From Phycisphaerae bacterium (GTDB lineage: Bacteria; Planctomycetota; Phycisphaerae; JAJVII01): a stretch of DNA of 64,000 bases. Numbering within the stretch: position 1 is the first letter of the stretch; each line of letters begins with the position of its first letter. Position numbers and translations under genes: made by a program. The notes below the pieces were generated by a model. That model searched no databases, was not told where the DNA came from, and was given only the letters and a program-made list of their open reading frames with translations. The stretch lies in contig JAJVII010000039.1 of assembly GCA_022072085.1 (NCBI GenBank), forward strand, positions 1 to 64,000, read 5' to 3'. This document shows positions 3,698 to 9,692 of this stretch, piece after piece.

Positions 3698-4836
3698 TAC
3701 GCATTCCACCTAATTTTCGTGCAGCCATGAACAGCGGCAGATGGTCTTGATTCGTTCGGGGGTGAGGGCTTGCCACATGCCGCAGAGCTGGTCGGCAAGT
3801 TGATCGTAGTCGGCGTAGACGCGGTTGCTAAAGGCGTGATCCTTGATCCAATGCCAGAGCCGTTCGACCACGTTCAGCTCCGGTGTGTAGGGCGGCAACG
3901 GCAGCAAGGTGATGTTGGAGGGAACTCCCAGCCGACCGGTCGTGTGCCAGCCGGCGTTGTCCAGCACCAGCACCACGTGACGGTCCGGGCCCACCTGCCG
4001 GCTGATCGCCTCCAGGTGCAACTGCATCATCTCGGTGTTGGCCCAGGGCAGGATCAGGGTGCAGGATTCGCCGCTGAGCGGATTGACCGCGCCGTAGAGA
4101 TAAACCCATTCGCATTCGTCCTGCAGCGGGCGGATCGGACGCGAGCCGCGGGGCGCCCAGACGTAGGTTAGGCACCCCTTCTGGCCGAATCGGCATTCGT
4201 CCTGGAACCAGACTTCGACCGGCTTGTCGGGCTGTTGCTCGCAGACGGCCTGGACAAAAGGGGGGCGTTATCCTTCCAACGCTGTTCCTCCTCGGCCTGC
4301 TTCTTGGGGTTCACCGGGCGGGGCCGCAGTGGCTGGTAGCCCAGCCGATGCAGCAACTCGTAAGCGCCGTTGAGGCTGTAGCTGACGCCGAATTGCTCCT
4401 TGAGAATGCGCACGATGTCTTGGCCGCGGAGGATTTGCTCGCTGTTGTTGATTCGATCCAGCAACGCCTGGTGCTGCTCGCGTGGCAGATGCGGGGCCTT
4501 GCCCGGCTGCTTGAGCGGGCGGACACGCTCAAGGCCGTGGTCGCGATAGAAGTAGACCCAACGCTGGACGAAGTTCTTGCTGCGGTCCAGCTTGTCCATG
4601 ATCTCCCGGGTTCTGCGGCCCTCCAACGCCAGCAGCACCGCCCGCCAGCGGTCGCGTTGCTTGGCGTTGGTCTCCCTGGCGATTCGCCGACGCAGTTGAT
4701 CGAGGTCCGACCGGTCGTGGGCCGTCACGTTCATGGGCATCCTTTCCAAGAGGAATGCCCGATCATCCCACGTTTCAATCCCTAGCGCAACCCGGACATG
4801 TACCTAACTGCGCGCGAAATTCAACCGGGATGCGTA
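3698..4836 (-). mobile_element. IS630-family insertion sequence
   Basis: The element carries one transposase unit on the minus strand. Both ends read inward as TACGCAT followed by similar sequence (left end from 3698, right end from 4836 on the other strand), and a second shared block, TTCG-x-GCAG, lies about 20 bases in. The ends are thus imperfect inverted repeats of roughly 28 bases bounded by TA dinucleotides, the target duplicated by IS630/Tc1-mariner elements. The distance between the TAs gives an element of about 1.13 kb, normal for IS630. It lies directly downstream of the HAO-like operon and 60 bases from the 3D gene. Ends were matched by eye. Confidence 0.8.
3710..4734 (-). CDS. IS630-family transposase in two frames
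   Basis: The first frame begins at 4734 (GGAAAGG sits 6 bases upstream) and encodes the helix-turn-helix half, including RTREIMDKLDRSKNFVQRWV. The second frame encodes the DDE catalytic half and ends at the TAG at 3710. Its triad is visible in WFQDECRFG, VLVLDNAGWH and PELNVVERLW. The frames meet at a C6T4 run on the coding strand (plus-strand bases 4256-4265) and are joined by a -1 shift, which would give a 341-residue protein, the family's usual length. Some IS630 elements use programmed frameshifting, but here the zero-frame codons GCC CCC CTT TTG do not form a perfect slippery heptamer. A disabling indel in the homopolymer is equally possible. Confidence 0.8.
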
Positions 4837-5019: not shown

Positions 5020-5952
5020 CTACCCAGCCGGTTGCTCCGCCGGTTCGATCAGCGCCAACAGGCCGAGCAGTCCCATGTTCGCGAACAGCAGCGGCGCGAA
5101 GGGCGGGGCGCCCTGCATCAGCAGTTTCAGCGAGAACTGGCCCGTGCCGGCCAGGTCGTGCGTCAGGTGCATCGCCAGTCCGAACACGCCCAGGCCCATC
5201 GCACCGAGCATGGCCCAGAAGTAGATCACCTTCTCGATTCGCCGCGGGCGCCGCAGCGCCGCGTGGTGCAGCACCAGCCCGGTCAGCAAGAACCCCGTGA
5301 CCGTCGGCGTCCAGACGACCGGCTGCTGCCGGCTGGCCGGCGAGTGGTCGATGATCGCCAGCAGCGTCGCGGCTAGCAGGCCCAGCCCGTTGAGCAAGTG
5401 CAGGTGCTGCTGCTGGCTGAACGGCGCCGCCAGCCAACCGCCCAGCAGCCGCAGTCGGCCGGGCTGGGTCGGGTCCTCCTCGGCCGCCGCGACGATTCCC
5501 ACCAGCGCCACGCCGGCGAACGCCAGCGGCGCCAGCAGCGGCGCGGCGTAGACCACGCCGTCCCATGTGAGATGGCCGCCCAGTCCGATCGCTGCGGCCA
5601 TGTGCATCGCGAAACCGACGATGCCCACCGCAAGCATCAGCCCCATCGCCGCCAGGTGGAGCGAGAGAGCCGACGAGCCGTGCCGCGGGCGCAGCGCCAG
5701 CCACAGCGCCGTCAGCGCCCCCAGCGGCGAGGCCAGCACCGGGATCCATTCATAGCCCACCATGAAGTAGCGCCGCGACCAGCCGTGCGAGAGGAAGACC
5801 TCCAGCGCCAGGAAGCCGAAGTTGAACGCGACGAACAGCAGCACGATCCGCTGCGGGCTGATCGCGGCGGAGAACTCAAACACCTCGCCCAGCGACCAGA
5901 GCCGCCGGCTGGCGCGAGACGGGTTGCCGTGGGCGTCGGTGCGATCGCTCAT
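5020..5952 (-). CDS. Polytopic membrane protein, partner of octaheme cytochrome
   Basis: A 310-residue protein with about eight hydrophobic segments and a basic N-terminus. I do not recognise a named family. The two halves look like an internal duplication: VGIVGFAMHMAAAIG in the first half and LGVFGLAMHLTHDLAG in the second sit at matching places and both carry an in-membrane His. Those His could bind heme b or a quinone, but spacing typical of known cytochrome b families is not evident. The start ATG overlaps the stop of the octaheme cytochrome gene by 4 bases (ATGA type), so the two are co-translated. A likely job is electron exchange between the membrane pool and the cytochrome. An IS630 copy lies about 180 bases beyond its end, so further genes may have been cut off. 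Confidence 0.65.
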   Translation of the reverse strand: MSDRTDAHGNPSRASRRLWSLGEVFEFSAAISPQRIVLLFVAFNFGFLALEVFLSHGWSRRYFMVGYEWIPVLASPLGALTALWLALRPRHGSSALSLHLAAMGLMLAVGIVGFAMHMAAAIGLGGHLTWDGVVYAAPLLAPLAFAGVALVGIVAAAEEDPTQPGRLRLLGGWLAAPFSQQQHLHLLNGLGLLAATLLAIIDHSPASRQQPVVWTPTVTGFLLTGLVLHHAALRRPRRIEKVIYFWAMLGAMGLGVFGLAMHLTHDLAGTGQFSLKLLMQGAPPFAPLLFANMGLLGLLALIEPAEQPAG

Positions 5953-7373
5953 TGCCCGCCTCCTTTCGCGGCGTCAATGGGGGGCGCAGGAATCGGCGCG
6001 AGCCCGTGGCCGGCCTCCAGCCGCATCACCAGGGGCGGCCCCGAGCCGCCCGAGGCCGCCGGCTGCGTGGTCGGGGCCTCGCCGCCTGCGCGGGCCTTGA
6101 GTTCCGCGGCCTTCTCCTTCAGCTCGGCCATGTCCTTGATGAGTTCATAGGCCCCGTGCCACTGGCTGTAGTCGGCGCCCTGCATGAAGGCCCCGAACTT
6201 GGTCGTGCGGCCCCAGTGGTGCCAGAGGTCGAACGCGGTGAACTCGATCCGCTCGTCGAAGGGCGTGCGGGTCACCAGCCCGCGGTCCTGGAGATCCTTG
6301 AGGATCGCCGTCGCCTCGGTCACCTTTTCGTTCGTCCATTTCACCGCGTCGTCGCCCTTGCGATACTCGTCCAGCACGAACGGCTTGCTGTGGCACTGCA
6401 TGCAGACGTTCTGCATGCGGGCGCGGTTGTCGGCGGCGTTTGGCCGATCGGCGGTGATAGGCTCGTGCAGGAACAGGCTCAGCCGGTCGCCGACGTCGTG
6501 CGTGCGCGGCTGGCCTCCGAAGCCGCTCATGTGGCAGACCTGGCAGGTCGGGGCGGGGAAGTCCAGCGTGCCCAGCGGGTGGCGGGCGGTCCAGTTCCAG
6601 TGATGGCCTTCGGTCGCATACTTCACCCCGTGCTTGGACTCCATGTAGATCTCGAACTGCGGGTGGTCCGGGCCGATGTGGCAGTTGTTGCAGGTCTCGG
6701 GCTTGCGGACCTGCTCCAGCGAGAACTCGTGCCGCAGGTGGCAGGTGGAGCAGCGGCCGGCCGAGTTGTCCGCCTGCGGCTGGCCGATCGAGTGGCAGCG
6801 GACGCAGGCGACAGGGGTGACCTGCGGGCCCTCGATGGCGTAGAGGGCGTTGCGCTGCGGCAGGACGGGCTGGCCCTGCGGCGAGCGCGGGATCTCGGTC
6901 ACCGCGGTGTAGAGCTTCATCAGGGCGGGGTTGTCCTGGATGTCCTCGATGCCGGTCATCGCGACCCATGCCCGCAGGCTGTGTCGGCTGGCGTTGAACT
7001 GCTGCACCTGGCCCGCGTGGCACTTGGCGCACAGGGCCGGCGTGACGGCGGCGACGATGTTGAACCCCTCATGCTCCATCGAGCCGGGGTAGCCCTTGGG
7101 AACCTCGTGGCAGGCGATGCAGGTGTAGCGGCTGACGGCGTGCCGCGAGCGGGCCCACTGGGCGACGATGGCCGGCGACTCGCGCTGGTGGCAGGCGATG
7201 CACTTGTCGCCGGCGGCGAACTCGGGCAGGGGCGGCATCTCGCCCGGGCCGACGCCGGGTCCGAAGTCCACCTGTTCAGCCCCCGGCGGCTGCGGGCGAT
7301 GATTCAGCCACCACCAGGTAAGCCCGGAGCCCAGGATCATGACGACCAGCGCGGTCACGACGGTTCGCGGCAT
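5949..7373 (-). CDS. Octaheme cytochrome c, hydroxylamine oxidoreductase family
   Basis: A 474-residue protein with an N-terminal membrane anchor (about residues 4-24) and eight CxxCH motifs, at about residues 58, 85, 115, 190, 208, 228, 277 and 324. The block between hemes 5 and 7 (GRCSTCHLRHEFSLEQVRKP, then CHIGPDHPQFEIYMESKHG) is the pattern I know from HAO-type octaheme proteins. No CxxCK heme is present, so it is not an octaheme nitrite or tetrathionate reductase of that type. HAO enzymes oxidise hydroxylamine or hydrazine when a C-terminal Tyr is crosslinked to heme 4; relatives without it are thought to act reductively. A GADYSQWHGAYEL stretch (about 399-411) lies in the right region, but which Tyr aligns needs an alignment. 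The tail is Thr-Thr-Gln-Pro rich. It is the first gene of a two-gene unit. Confidence 0.8.
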   Translation of the reverse strand: MPRTVVTALVVMILGSGLTWWWLNHRPQPPGAEQVDFGPGVGPGEMPPLPEFAAGDKCIACHQRESPAIVAQWARSRHAVSRYTCIACHEVPKGYPGSMEHEGFNIVAAVTPALCAKCHAGQVQQFNASRHSLRAWVAMTGIEDIQDNPALMKLYTAVTEIPRSPQGQPVLPQRNALYAIEGPQVTPVACVRCHSIGQPQADNSAGRCSTCHLRHEFSLEQVRKPETCNNCHIGPDHPQFEIYMESKHGVKYATEGHHWNWTARHPLGTLDFPAPTCQVCHMSGFGGQPRTHDVGDRLSLFLHEPITADRPNAADNRARMQNVCMQCHSKPFVLDEYRKGDDAVKWTNEKVTEATAILKDLQDRGLVTRTPFDERIEFTAFDLWHHWGRTTKFGAFMQGADYSQWHGAYELIKDMAELKEKAAELKARAGGEAPTTQPAASGGSGPPLVMRLEAGHGLAPIPAPPIDAAKGGGQ

Positions 7374-7550
7374 GAGCTTATGTTCCTCTGCCGATGAATA
7401 TGGCTCAATGTGGGAGGCACTCGTTGCTCACGTAATCTGACAGATCGCCCTCGCCGCGGCAAGCGCCTTCTGCCCGGCTGTTTGCCGGATGGCGCATCGC
7501 CCATGCGCGACGCGATCGCCCGTGTACGAGGAAGCCGGAGTTGGTCGTGG

Positions 7551-9692
7551 TCACTTTTCCCCGGCGGAGAACTCGTCGGCGCCCAGGTCGGGTTTGTCGC
7601 CGCGGGGCTGGCGGTCATAGTCGTCGGGCACGTCCTTCCCGGCGGTCCCCTTGTCGATGGCGTCGACGGCGCTGGCCTTGAGGTGCAGGTTGCCGTGGGC
7701 TGGGTCGACGAAGTAGTCGCTCACCTGCTTGACCAGGTTGTTGCGGACGTCGATCTTGCCTTCGTACTTCTCGATGGAAATCCGCGGCCCGCAGAAGAGG
7801 TTGTCGGCGACGACCAGGCCGTCGCTGGCGTTCAGGACGCGGACCAGTCGGCCCAGTCGGCTGGTCGGGTCGAAGACCGAGTTGTTGAGGACCCGGCAGT
7901 CGCGCGTGTGCTCGGCCAGGATGCTGCATTCGGGGCAACGGACGACGAAGTTGTTGCGGACGATCACGCCGTTGGCGTGGCGGCGGTTTTCGTCGCGGGC
8001 GCTGCTGTTGCCCAGGCAGATGCCGCTGTCGCAGTCGATGACCGCGTTGCGCTCGACGATGCAGTCGGTCGCGTTGTGCCAGAGGAAGATGGCCCCGCGG
8101 GCCGAGCCCGTCTTGCCGCGGATGCCGGTGAAGACGTTGTCGCTGATGACCCAGTCGCGGGCGTTCATCGCGTCGATGCCGCCGACGTAGTTGCCGCCGA
8201 AGTTGCCGGGGTTCTCCTTCTCGTACGGCTCGTCGTCCAGACGCTTGGCCCGGTCGTTGTAGAACAGGCAATACTGGATGCGGCAGCCGTAGGCGAAGTC
8301 GGCCTGCCCTTCCTTGTCGGGAACCGCGGGCCCCTTCACGTGCCGCTGCCAGACGTTGTGGCTGATCACGTTGTAGATCGTGATGCGGTCCACGTCGAGG
8401 TTGGAGTTGATCTTGATGCCGTTCTGTTTGATGTTCTGAACCGTCAGATCAGCCAGCGTGCAGTCGGAGCAGTGCGTGAAGCTGACGCCCTCGGTGTGTC
8501 GGCTGGCGGCGAAGTCAAGGACGACCTTCGTGCGGTCGCCGCCGGCGCTGCGGACGGCCACCCTGTCTGTGTGAATCTGAAGGGCCATCGGCATGCGGTA
8601 GACGCCGTCAGCCAGCAGGATCGTGCCGCCGGGCTGGACGGTCTTGGTCGCCTCCAGCAACTCGGCCGGCGTGCGGACGTTGATGACCTGCCCGGCCGGT
8701 TTGGGCAGGGGCGGGGCTTTGGGGAACCAGGCCTGCATCGGCGGGCCGGCGGGGGCGGGGTCGGCGTCGGGCCGGCTGGTCGAGGCGTCACCAGGCAGCG
8801 GCGCCCCCTTGGGCGCGGGCGGCGAGGCGCCGAGGATCTGCGTCGAGATCGCGCTGGGCGCCTTGCCCTCGAGCGCGACGTGGATGACCTCGGCGTAGGC
8901 CATCAGCGTCAGCCAGGTTCGCAGGACGTTGCCGTTGCGGGCCAGGCCGGCCTCGGTGTAGTCGGCCTGCCACTGCTTGGGGTTGCTGGGATGCACGCCG
9001 TCCTTGCTGATCGGCGTGGGGACCTCCCACTGGCTGAACGCGGCGAACTGCGGCAGCGTGCCGTTCCAGTCGTCCGGGCGGCGGTTGAGGACGTGGGCGT
9101 AGAAGTCGATCAGCGGCACGTGCAGGTCGGCGGCGATGCGGCGGTCGATCGCGACAGCCTGGCGGACCTTCTCGTCCAGACCGCTCATCGGCGGGATGGT
9201 GCTGAGGATGACGACCACGCCGCTGTCGAGGCACTTCTGCACGAGTGCGCGAAGGTTCTTCTCATACGCGGCCATGCTCTCGCGGCGGATGTCGTTGCTG
9301 CCGAACATGACGACCGCGACCTCGGGCTTGAGCGCCGCGATCCAGCGGTCAACGTTCTTGAGGCCCCAGCCGGCGGTCTGGCCGCCCTGGTTGCCCTTGT
9401 CGGGGCCTTTCCAGCGGTAGCACTCCCTCTTCATGCGGCCGTTGACCGCGTCCAGGGCGGCGGCGACGTCGGCCGGCAGACTGGACTTGTTGACGTACTG
9501 GAGCGGCGCGAAGTAGGCCATCGAGTCGGTGATCGAGTCGCCGATGTGGACGAGCACGCCCTTGTCGCCCTTGCATTCGGCGTGGACCCTGCGCATCGGC
9601 GCGACCCAGTCGGGGTCGGCGGCACGCAGGGCAGGGGTTGCGACGATCGAGGCGAGCATGAACGCGACCAGGCCGGCGGCGGTCTTTCGCAT
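7551..9692 (-). CDS. Secreted SGNH/GDSL hydrolase fused to a right-handed beta-helix
   Basis: Predicted 713-residue exported enzyme. The ATG at 9692 opens a signal peptide (MRKTAAGLVAFMLASIVATP) and has GGAAAGGA upstream; the frame extends far further up but without protein character. Residues about 25-230 are an SGNH esterase: HIGDSITD carries the nucleophile Ser, VVMFGSNDIRR is the Asn block, and DGVHPS supplies the catalytic Asp and His. A Pro-rich linker (about 255-310) leads to a beta-helix domain (about 315-700) of the pectate-lyase/NosD type, with ladders such as GVIVRNNFVVRCPECS. The pairing suggests deacetylation of a polysaccharide held by the helix domain. The substrate is not evident. 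It lies 177 bases upstream of the HAO-like gene and is probably a separate unit. Confidence 0.8.
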   Translation of the reverse strand: MRKTAAGLVAFMLASIVATPALRAADPDWVAPMRRVHAECKGDKGVLVHIGDSITDSMAYFAPLQYVNKSSLPADVAAALDAVNGRMKRECYRWKGPDKGNQGGQTAGWGLKNVDRWIAALKPEVAVVMFGSNDIRRESMAAYEKNLRALVQKCLDSGVVVILSTIPPMSGLDEKVRQAVAIDRRIAADLHVPLIDFYAHVLNRRPDDWNGTLPQFAAFSQWEVPTPISKDGVHPSNPKQWQADYTEAGLARNGNVLRTWLTLMAYAEVIHVALEGKAPSAISTQILGASPPAPKGAPLPGDASTSRPDADPAPAGPPMQAWFPKAPPLPKPAGQVINVRTPAELLEATKTVQPGGTILLADGVYRMPMALQIHTDRVAVRSAGGDRTKVVLDFAASRHTEGVSFTHCSDCTLADLTVQNIKQNGIKINSNLDVDRITIYNVISHNVWQRHVKGPAVPDKEGQADFAYGCRIQYCLFYNDRAKRLDDEPYEKENPGNFGGNYVGGIDAMNARDWVISDNVFTGIRGKTGSARGAIFLWHNATDCIVERNAVIDCDSGICLGNSSARDENRRHANGVIVRNNFVVRCPECSILAEHTRDCRVLNNSVFDPTSRLGRLVRVLNASDGLVVADNLFCGPRISIEKYEGKIDVRNNLVKQVSDYFVDPAHGNLHLKASAVDAIDKGTAGKDVPDDYDRQPRGDKPDLGADEFSAGEK

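Follow-up and report, generated by a model that had tools for sequence, protein, structure and literature searches.

For Nautilia profundicola a reverse-HURM has reportedly been proposed, in which an octaheme cytochrome of the hydroxylamine oxidoreductase (HAO) type is fed from quinol for nitrite reduction. HaoA and the tetraheme CycB are named as partners in Nautilia, and in Thermosulfurimonas and Dissulfuribacter a HaoA homologue is encoded with NrfD and an iron-sulfur (FeS) protein near Nap (PMC5276818). In Caldithrix abyssi the genes of epsilon-Hao, a proposed nitrite reductase, cluster with those of Rieske/cytochrome b and of Nap (PMC5317091), and Kuenenia has a complex of Rieske/cytochrome b that contains a HAO-like octaheme (PMC12954380). 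Here we describe a two-gene locus from a Phycisphaerae bacterium (GCA_022072085.1, contig JAJVII010000039.1, positions 1 to 64,000; this whole stretch of 64,000 nucleotides is referred to below as the window), in which a gene for a HAO-family octaheme cytochrome c is joined to one for an eight-helix membrane protein of an unnamed family.

We propose that the two proteins probably form one respiratory quinol:nitrogen-oxide oxidoreductase, acting on nitrite, nitric oxide (NO) or hydroxylamine, with the eight-helix protein as its quinol-oxidising subunit, which probably carries two b-hemes. The proposal draws on the conserved pairing of the two genes, the active site of the cytochrome, the architecture of the membrane protein and the exchange of quinol modules among related octaheme operons.

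The pair and its distribution

Both open reading frames lie on the minus strand, and an earlier sequence-only reading of the locus was right about their positions, the four-base overlap (ATGA), the eight CxxCH motifs of the cytochrome and the GLAMH-like motif in both halves of its partner (Table 1). A class draw of 198 genomes searched with the window membrane protein gave seven matching genomes, its own and six others at 28-37% identity, and an octaheme gene adjoins the membrane gene in all six of the others. A scan of 84,980 species, one genome each, with the membrane alignment gave 144 relatives. Among the 80 analysed, the octaheme gene is directly upstream on the same strand in 77 (75 complete with eight CxxCH, two truncated at a contig end), and the remaining three membrane genes have a contig end immediately upstream of them. 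Neither refuting condition of the sequence-only reading, absence of the pair from other genomes or a cytochrome outside the HAO family, has thus been borne out.

The 80 loci come from Acidobacteriota (31), Poribacteria (22), Planctomycetota (11), Zixiibacteriota (4), Verrucomicrobiota (4), Gemmatimonadota (2), Fidelibacterota (2), Bacteroidota, Bdellovibrionota and Myxococcota (1 each) and one record without a phylum. The two-gene unit is found in at least ten phyla, and since the relatives were found by one peptide pattern and 80 of the 144 were analysed, this spread is a lower bound. The sequence-only reading had considered such a pair in non-anammox planctomycetes; it is not peculiar to planctomycetes, as 69 of the 80 loci are from other phyla or the unassigned record. 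Of 392 planctomycete genomes, 134 have a gene matching the HAO family PF13447 and 14 have the membrane gene; each of these 14 also has a PF13447 match (p ~2e-7). The pairwise distances of the two proteins are also correlated (r 0.84, n=76), with a maximum of 0.18 in 1000 permutations (0/1000 as high). Further genes around the pair vary by lineage, and because these remaining neighbours differ, the octaheme and membrane genes form a two-gene unit.

The octaheme cytochrome

The octaheme cytochrome belongs to the HAO family, as had been recognised from its motifs. Its eight CxxCH motifs start at residues 58, 85, 115, 190, 208, 228, 277 and 324, and eight are present in all 76 aligned family members, the window protein included. 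The PF13447 match (E 1.7e-27; 96.8 bits against a cut-off of 21.9) covers residues 204-368, with hemes 5-8, and matches in the PDB to 4qo5 (E 7.3e-35) and to Nitrosomonas europaea HAO (NeHAO, 1fgj; E 5.7e-23) are far above chance. With the family profile the best PDB match is again 4qo5 (E 2.6e-52), and the solved structures closest to the cytochrome are 4qo5, N. europaea HAO and the anammox HAO and hydrazine dehydrogenase (HDH) proteins. The NCBIfam hydrazine dehydrogenase cut-off is missed by the window cytochrome (98.7 against 900 bits).

An Asp-His pair, invariant in the family, aligns with Asp267-His268 of N. europaea HAO, which we take to be its active-site pair, and we assume from the HAO structures that heme 4, the counterpart by order of the fourth CxxCH, is the catalytic one. 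Trp405, within an invariant Gln-Trp-His-Gly, stands at the column of the cross-linking Tyr467 of N. europaea HAO in the cytochrome alignment, Tyr467 having been placed by counting along the printed 1fgj alignment, where it is within WTYTEGW. None of the 76 members has a Tyr at this column, nor are the neighbouring Gln404 and His406 Tyr, and the earlier question of whether the cross-linking residue is kept is therefore answered in the negative. PMC12758564 likewise names heme 4 as catalytic and gives the cross-linking Tyr as the mark of oxidative enzymes, those without it being reductive. Because the Tyr is replaced, the window enzyme appears to be a HAO of the reductive type, and it is more likely a reductase than a hydroxylamine oxidase. 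ONR and pentaheme NrfA are characterised by an active-site heme with a CxxCK motif (PMC12285233); CxxCK is found in none of the 76 sequences, so the cytochrome is neither an ONR nor a classical NrfA. An IUPAC double-CxxCH pattern search of the host genome gave no match.

The eight-helix membrane protein

The membrane protein carries GFAMH (residues 113-117) in one half and GLAMH (258-262) in the other. Profiles of the two halves align at a probability of 97.7-98.4% (hhalign), against 1-8% for reversed controls, and the internal duplication of a four-helix unit is real. An AlphaFold model built from 68 sequences (alignment A3: 64 of the 80 relatives, three loci of the class draw and the window protein) has a pLDDT of 82.8 and a pTM of 0.81, and was used instead of a weak earlier model from seven sequences (pLDDT 70). 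It contains eight long helices and some short ones, in agreement with the eight helices and duplicated halves first read from the sequence.

Four His residues are invariant, two in each repeat. In the 68-sequence model each repeat has its first His at the end of an odd-numbered helix and its second close to where the following odd-numbered helix ends; because of these positions all four should point towards one face. Lysine plus arginine (K+R) average ~8.4 on the loops of the N-terminal side against ~2.6 on the other loops. Given this concentration, the positive-inside rule would put the four His near the periplasmic side, where the octaheme is expected. Being equivalent by repeat, they are compatible with two bis-His b-hemes, which is not proof of them.

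The family itself is unnamed in both Pfam and NCBIfam. The enzyme half, in contrast, belongs to an already known kind, of which it is one clade. The window protein has no Pfam match and no sequence match in the PDB, and NCBIfam gives only a stray one (E 0.72). A Pfam and NCBIfam scan of the 68 members assigned no family; neither PF03916 (NrfD) nor PF00033 (cytochrome b of bc1/b6f) was matched at E 0.01, and isolated matches to Ceramidase, Zip, rhomboid, CrcB and others (one or two members each, E 0.002-0.008) were judged to be due to chance. CxxCH, the covalent c-heme motif that is a feature of NapC/NrfH, is absent from the translation of the window membrane protein. The best VIA match of the model is 3d19_B, a helical protein (238 residues, Z 15.6, root-mean-square deviation 4.4), and helical bundles can score that high through their common arrangement. 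NrfD, cytochrome b and other known quinol subunits are absent among the 50 VIA matches listed, which excludes none of them. No description of the eight-helix protein was found in the literature searched, a scope that leaves aside subscription papers and preprints.

Exchange of quinol modules among sister octahemes

The position of the eight-helix gene can be compared with that of known quinol modules in 25 unpaired octaheme loci, where a PF13447 gene lacks the membrane partner; they come from 24 planctomycete genomes (three of 28 non-paired rows had no locus). These are 23 genomes picked by hand from 120 that are positive for PF13447 and negative for the membrane gene, most anammox genomes being omitted, and one further genome, G388. 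By tblastn, cytochrome b adjoins 14 of the 25 octahemes, with a Rieske protein where the stretch is long enough, NrfD adjoins six and an NrfH/NapC-type cytochrome two (one at 30% identity). The other three have no quinol module, and two of these (L147 and L154) are at contig ends. The eight-helix gene occurs at none of the 25, and conversely cytochrome b, Rieske, NrfD, its FeS protein and NrfH occur at none of 89 paired loci (86 distinct, as three records were counted twice). Pfam and NCBIfam confirmed representatives of Rieske, Cytochrome_B, NrfD, the NapC/NirT family, NapA and NapB. The eight-helix gene and the known quinol modules are mutually exclusive in the slot beside the octaheme, and G388 holds one octaheme with cytochrome b and another with the eight-helix protein at separate places (L172, L149).

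The paired cytochromes form one clade, with support of 100/99 in a 60-row tree that includes the window protein, 35 of the 75 complete paired cytochromes, three of five extra paired ones and ten of the 25 unpaired ones. The clade is also found, at an SH-aLRT of 81, in an 82-row tree that adds 15 unpaired, two paired and more anammox rows; this tree came from a quick search with lower support, and no single branch in it separates the anammox outgroup from the other rows. Along it the partner type changes three times, the minimum for four types. One type of octaheme enzyme plugs into four quinol modules, which shows a modular principle. The sequence-only reading had suggested a new quinone-linked subunit, and this gains support from the known quinol modules that hold the same slot in sister operons; it is from them that we infer quinol as its substrate. 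A 624-amino-acid octaheme relative on a very long branch (L144, G349:C143) has none of the known partners nearby.

Nitrogen-oxide genes around the octahemes

Nitrate reductases are among the neighbours of both paired and unpaired octahemes. NapA adjoins 10 of the 25 unpaired genes, and 11 of the 80 paired loci have nitrogen-oxide genes within ~6 kb. In seven of the 80 this is an NO reductase (by Pfam at L035 and L079, by similarity at the others), accompanied in four of the seven by the iron-sulfur repair protein RIC. At L096 (1764-4100; myxococcal/deltaproteobacterial) NapA and a NapB-like gene stand with the octaheme/eight-helix pair, and L077 has NarH, NarI and NarK, NarI being named from its position and reading. 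A hybrid cluster protein gene lies directly upstream of the octaheme, within ~10 bases, at L057 (3082-4731) and L094 (3078-4730). These two loci look like hcp-octaheme-membrane operons, the hybrid cluster protein being a hydroxylamine reductase.

The host genome has three NO reductases and one PF13447 gene, and no NrfA was found in it. A NarG-like frame of 1022 amino acids (G000:C27:24283-27057) is well below the NarG cut-off and may be another molybdoenzyme. The sequence-only reading had left a nitrogen- and a sulfur-redox module side by side; gene neighbours and the Nap-linked sister group speak for nitrogen, and no support was found for sulfur. An OTR-like sulfur role was considered and set aside, no sulfur gene being prominent among the recurrent neighbours, among which no systematic scan for sulfur families was made.

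Two further neighbours recur. A membrane protein of 440-450 amino acids adjoins the pair in five acidobacterial loci (L035, at 6914-8242, L062, L078, L081 and L092); a guess that the 442-amino-acid protein might be NnrS was dropped, as the L035 copy has no Pfam or NCBIfam match at the cut-offs applied. A radical SAM/SPASM protein of TIGR04053, a heme-biosynthesis-like group, is encoded 1-4 kb from the pair at L062 (9898-11046), L035, L081, L092, L036 and L042.

Proposed mechanism and alternatives

In the proposed oxidoreductase the octaheme subunit would be anchored by its N-terminus and face the periplasm, and the eight-helix subunit would have arisen through duplication of a four-helix bundle. 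(Mena)quinol would be oxidised at the periplasmic side of this subunit, and electrons would pass to the octaheme chain, most probably by way of two b-hemes with His56/His117 and His203/His262 as ligands. Heme 4 of that chain would reduce nitrite (or NO or hydroxylamine), most probably in the direction of ammonium. The eight-helix subunit would thereby take the place that Rieske/cytochrome b, NrfD or NrfH-type modules have beside the sister octahemes, and like NrfHA the unit itself would presumably build no proton gradient.

A different assignment of the membrane protein, as a heme-free quinol oxidiser that is a very distant or convergent analogue of NrfD and passes electrons from quinol directly to the nearest c-heme, would have the His line a quinol site or a proton path. 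NrfD does occupy the same slot in six of the 25 sister operons, it is described as an eight-helix quinol oxidase (PMC12285233), and the helical bundle arrangement seen in the 3d19_B match is by itself no proof of heme. However, none of the 68 members scanned matches PF03916, and the two invariant His of each repeat, which occupy equivalent places on the helices, resemble bis-His heme ligands; we consider such an analogue unlikely. It is very improbable that the protein is no redox subunit at all and serves as an assembly factor, a transporter or a metal-dependent membrane hydrolase. Four invariant His could bind a metal, and there are stray Pfam matches to Ceramidase (2/68, E 0.0047) and Zip (1/68), but these are isolated and weak, and strict pairing with one enzyme clade, together with replacement by quinol modules, would be hard to explain for a general factor.

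The direction and purpose of electron flow can also be seen differently. Membership of the HAO family and the reversibility, in principle, of electron flow would allow the pair to oxidise hydroxylamine or a similar compound and to pass the electrons to quinone, as in nitrifiers. The cross-linking Tyr is nevertheless absent from all 76 cytochromes, an absence linked to reductive enzymes (PMC12758564), and the neighbours are nitrate reductases, NO reductases and hybrid cluster proteins; we consider oxidation very improbable. Detoxification of NO or hydroxylamine, in place of respiratory ammonification, is a somewhat doubtful but more substantial possibility, given the NO reductases at seven loci, the hybrid cluster protein directly upstream at two, RIC at four and a host with three NO reductases. 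NapA or NarH/NarI/NarK beside the pairs at L096 and L077 and NapA beside ten of the 25 sisters, on the other hand, suit nitrate respiration. Both functions would share the same quinol-driven mechanism.

Several observations weigh against a quinol:nitrogen-oxide oxidoreductase. None of the nitrogen-oxide genes sought lies within ~6 kb in 69 of the 80 paired loci, and the 11 that have them are clustered, five being related Acidobacteriota and the hybrid cluster proteins of L057 and L094 being 87% identical. No NapA or NarG above the cut-off was found in the host genome, and translations of the window's first 16 kb, read by eye, showed none of the nitrogen-oxide genes. The argument from exchanged partners rests on 25 loci in 24 genomes, 23 of them hand-picked, and a Foldseek search of the PDB had no match at E 0.001 (best E 0.56) and so gives no structural pointer to quinone binding. 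The window pair is itself divergent: it has a best identity of 43% and Val213 where 80 of 81 sequences have Glu, and its cytochrome is the deepest branch of the paired clade in the 60-row tree, on a long end branch. Because of this divergence it may differ from the rest of the family.

We see equal chances for and against a wider proposal, in which the eight-helix protein founds a class of quinol dehydrogenases of its own. It would be a di-heme b cytochrome made by duplication of a four-helix unit, unrelated in sequence or recognised fold to cytochrome bc1, NrfD or NapC/NrfH. A reductive HAO would have acquired it a single time, and the resulting compact two-gene quinol:nitrite (or NO/hydroxylamine) reductase, which could stand in for NrfHA, would then have reached at least ten phyla.

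Layout of the locus

Just downstream of the pair, at 3710-4749 on the minus strand of the window, are two open reading frames (193 and 106 amino acids) that presumably belong to a frame-shifted transposase of the IS630 type, which they resemble. The features of the pair are collected in Table 1.

Table 1. Features of the octaheme/eight-helix locus (window positions).
Feature	Position	Strand	Remarks
HAO-family octaheme cytochrome c gene, proposed catalytic subunit	5949..7373	(-)	474 amino acids
N-terminal hydrophobic stretch, residues 4-24	7302..7364	(-)	Putative uncleaved signal anchor, read from the translation; similar in relatives
Fourth CxxCH, residues 190-194	6792..6806	(-)	By order, catalytic heme 4 of HAO
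Asp236-His237	6663..6668	(-)	Aligned with Asp267-His268 of N. europaea HAO (1fgj); invariant, 76/76
Gln-Trp-His-Gly, residues 404-407	6153..6164	(-)	Q, W, H and G each 76/76
AAAGGAGG, strong ribosome-binding-like sequence for the membrane gene	5959..5966	(-)	Putative function, from sequence
ATGA overlap of four bases	5949..5952	(-)	Stop of cytochrome gene and start of membrane gene
Eight-helix membrane protein gene, proposed quinol-oxidising subunit, unnamed family	5020..5952	(-)	310 amino acids
First repeat, residues 43-151	5500..5826	(-)	Half-against-half hhalign, reversed controls
His56, end of helix 1	5785..5787	(-)	Invariant, 81/81
His117 of GFAMH, helix 3	5602..5604	(-)	Invariant, 81/81
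Second repeat, residues 194-296	5065..5373	(-)	Half-against-half hhalign, reversed controls
His203, end of helix 5	5344..5346	(-)	Invariant, 81/81; repeat mate of His56 (hhalign)
His262 of GLAMH, helix 7	5167..5169	(-)	Invariant, 81/81; repeat mate of His117 (hhalign)

Implications and comparison with known systems

Surveys of nitrate reduction target NrfA, NirK and NirS, and in our judgement HAO matches in soil and sponge bacteria are easily mistaken for nitrification. The pair may be an overlooked route of nitrogen-oxide respiration in soil and marine bacteria. If the proposal is correct, a quinol-driven nitrogen-oxide reductase has gone unrecorded in Acidobacteriota, Poribacteria, Planctomycetota, Verrucomicrobiota and others, and carriers counted in surveys as being without nitrite ammonification could have a substitute for NrfHA. 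A strictly paired membrane gene would also be a clean marker to separate the reductive clade from oxidative HAO.

Among solved structures, Nitrosomonas HAO (1fgj) and anammox hydrazine dehydrogenase (6hif) are of the same octaheme family and share the aligned Asp-His pair, but 1fgj carries the cross-linking Tyr where the family described here carries Trp, and the window cytochrome scores far below the hydrazine dehydrogenase cut-off. The best PDB match, 4qo5, likewise lacks a Tyr at the cross-link position, as the printed alignment shows; its entry is titled 'Hypothetical multiheme protein', and we take it to be from the archaeon Ignicoccus hospitalis. In the accounts cited at the outset, the octahemes with described quinol partners differ from the window pair in the membrane half. 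The quinol dehydrogenase of Nautilia is a membrane-bound tetraheme c-cytochrome, unlike the eight-helix protein. In Thermosulfurimonas and Dissulfuribacter a HaoA-like cytochrome is combined with a quinol-reactive integral membrane protein, as here, but there the membrane protein is NrfD, accompanied by a separate FeS protein. The Caldithrix abyssi cluster, laid out like 14 of the 25 sister loci, has a reductive HAO-family octaheme, as does the window, and is served by Rieske/cytochrome b where the window has the eight-helix protein.

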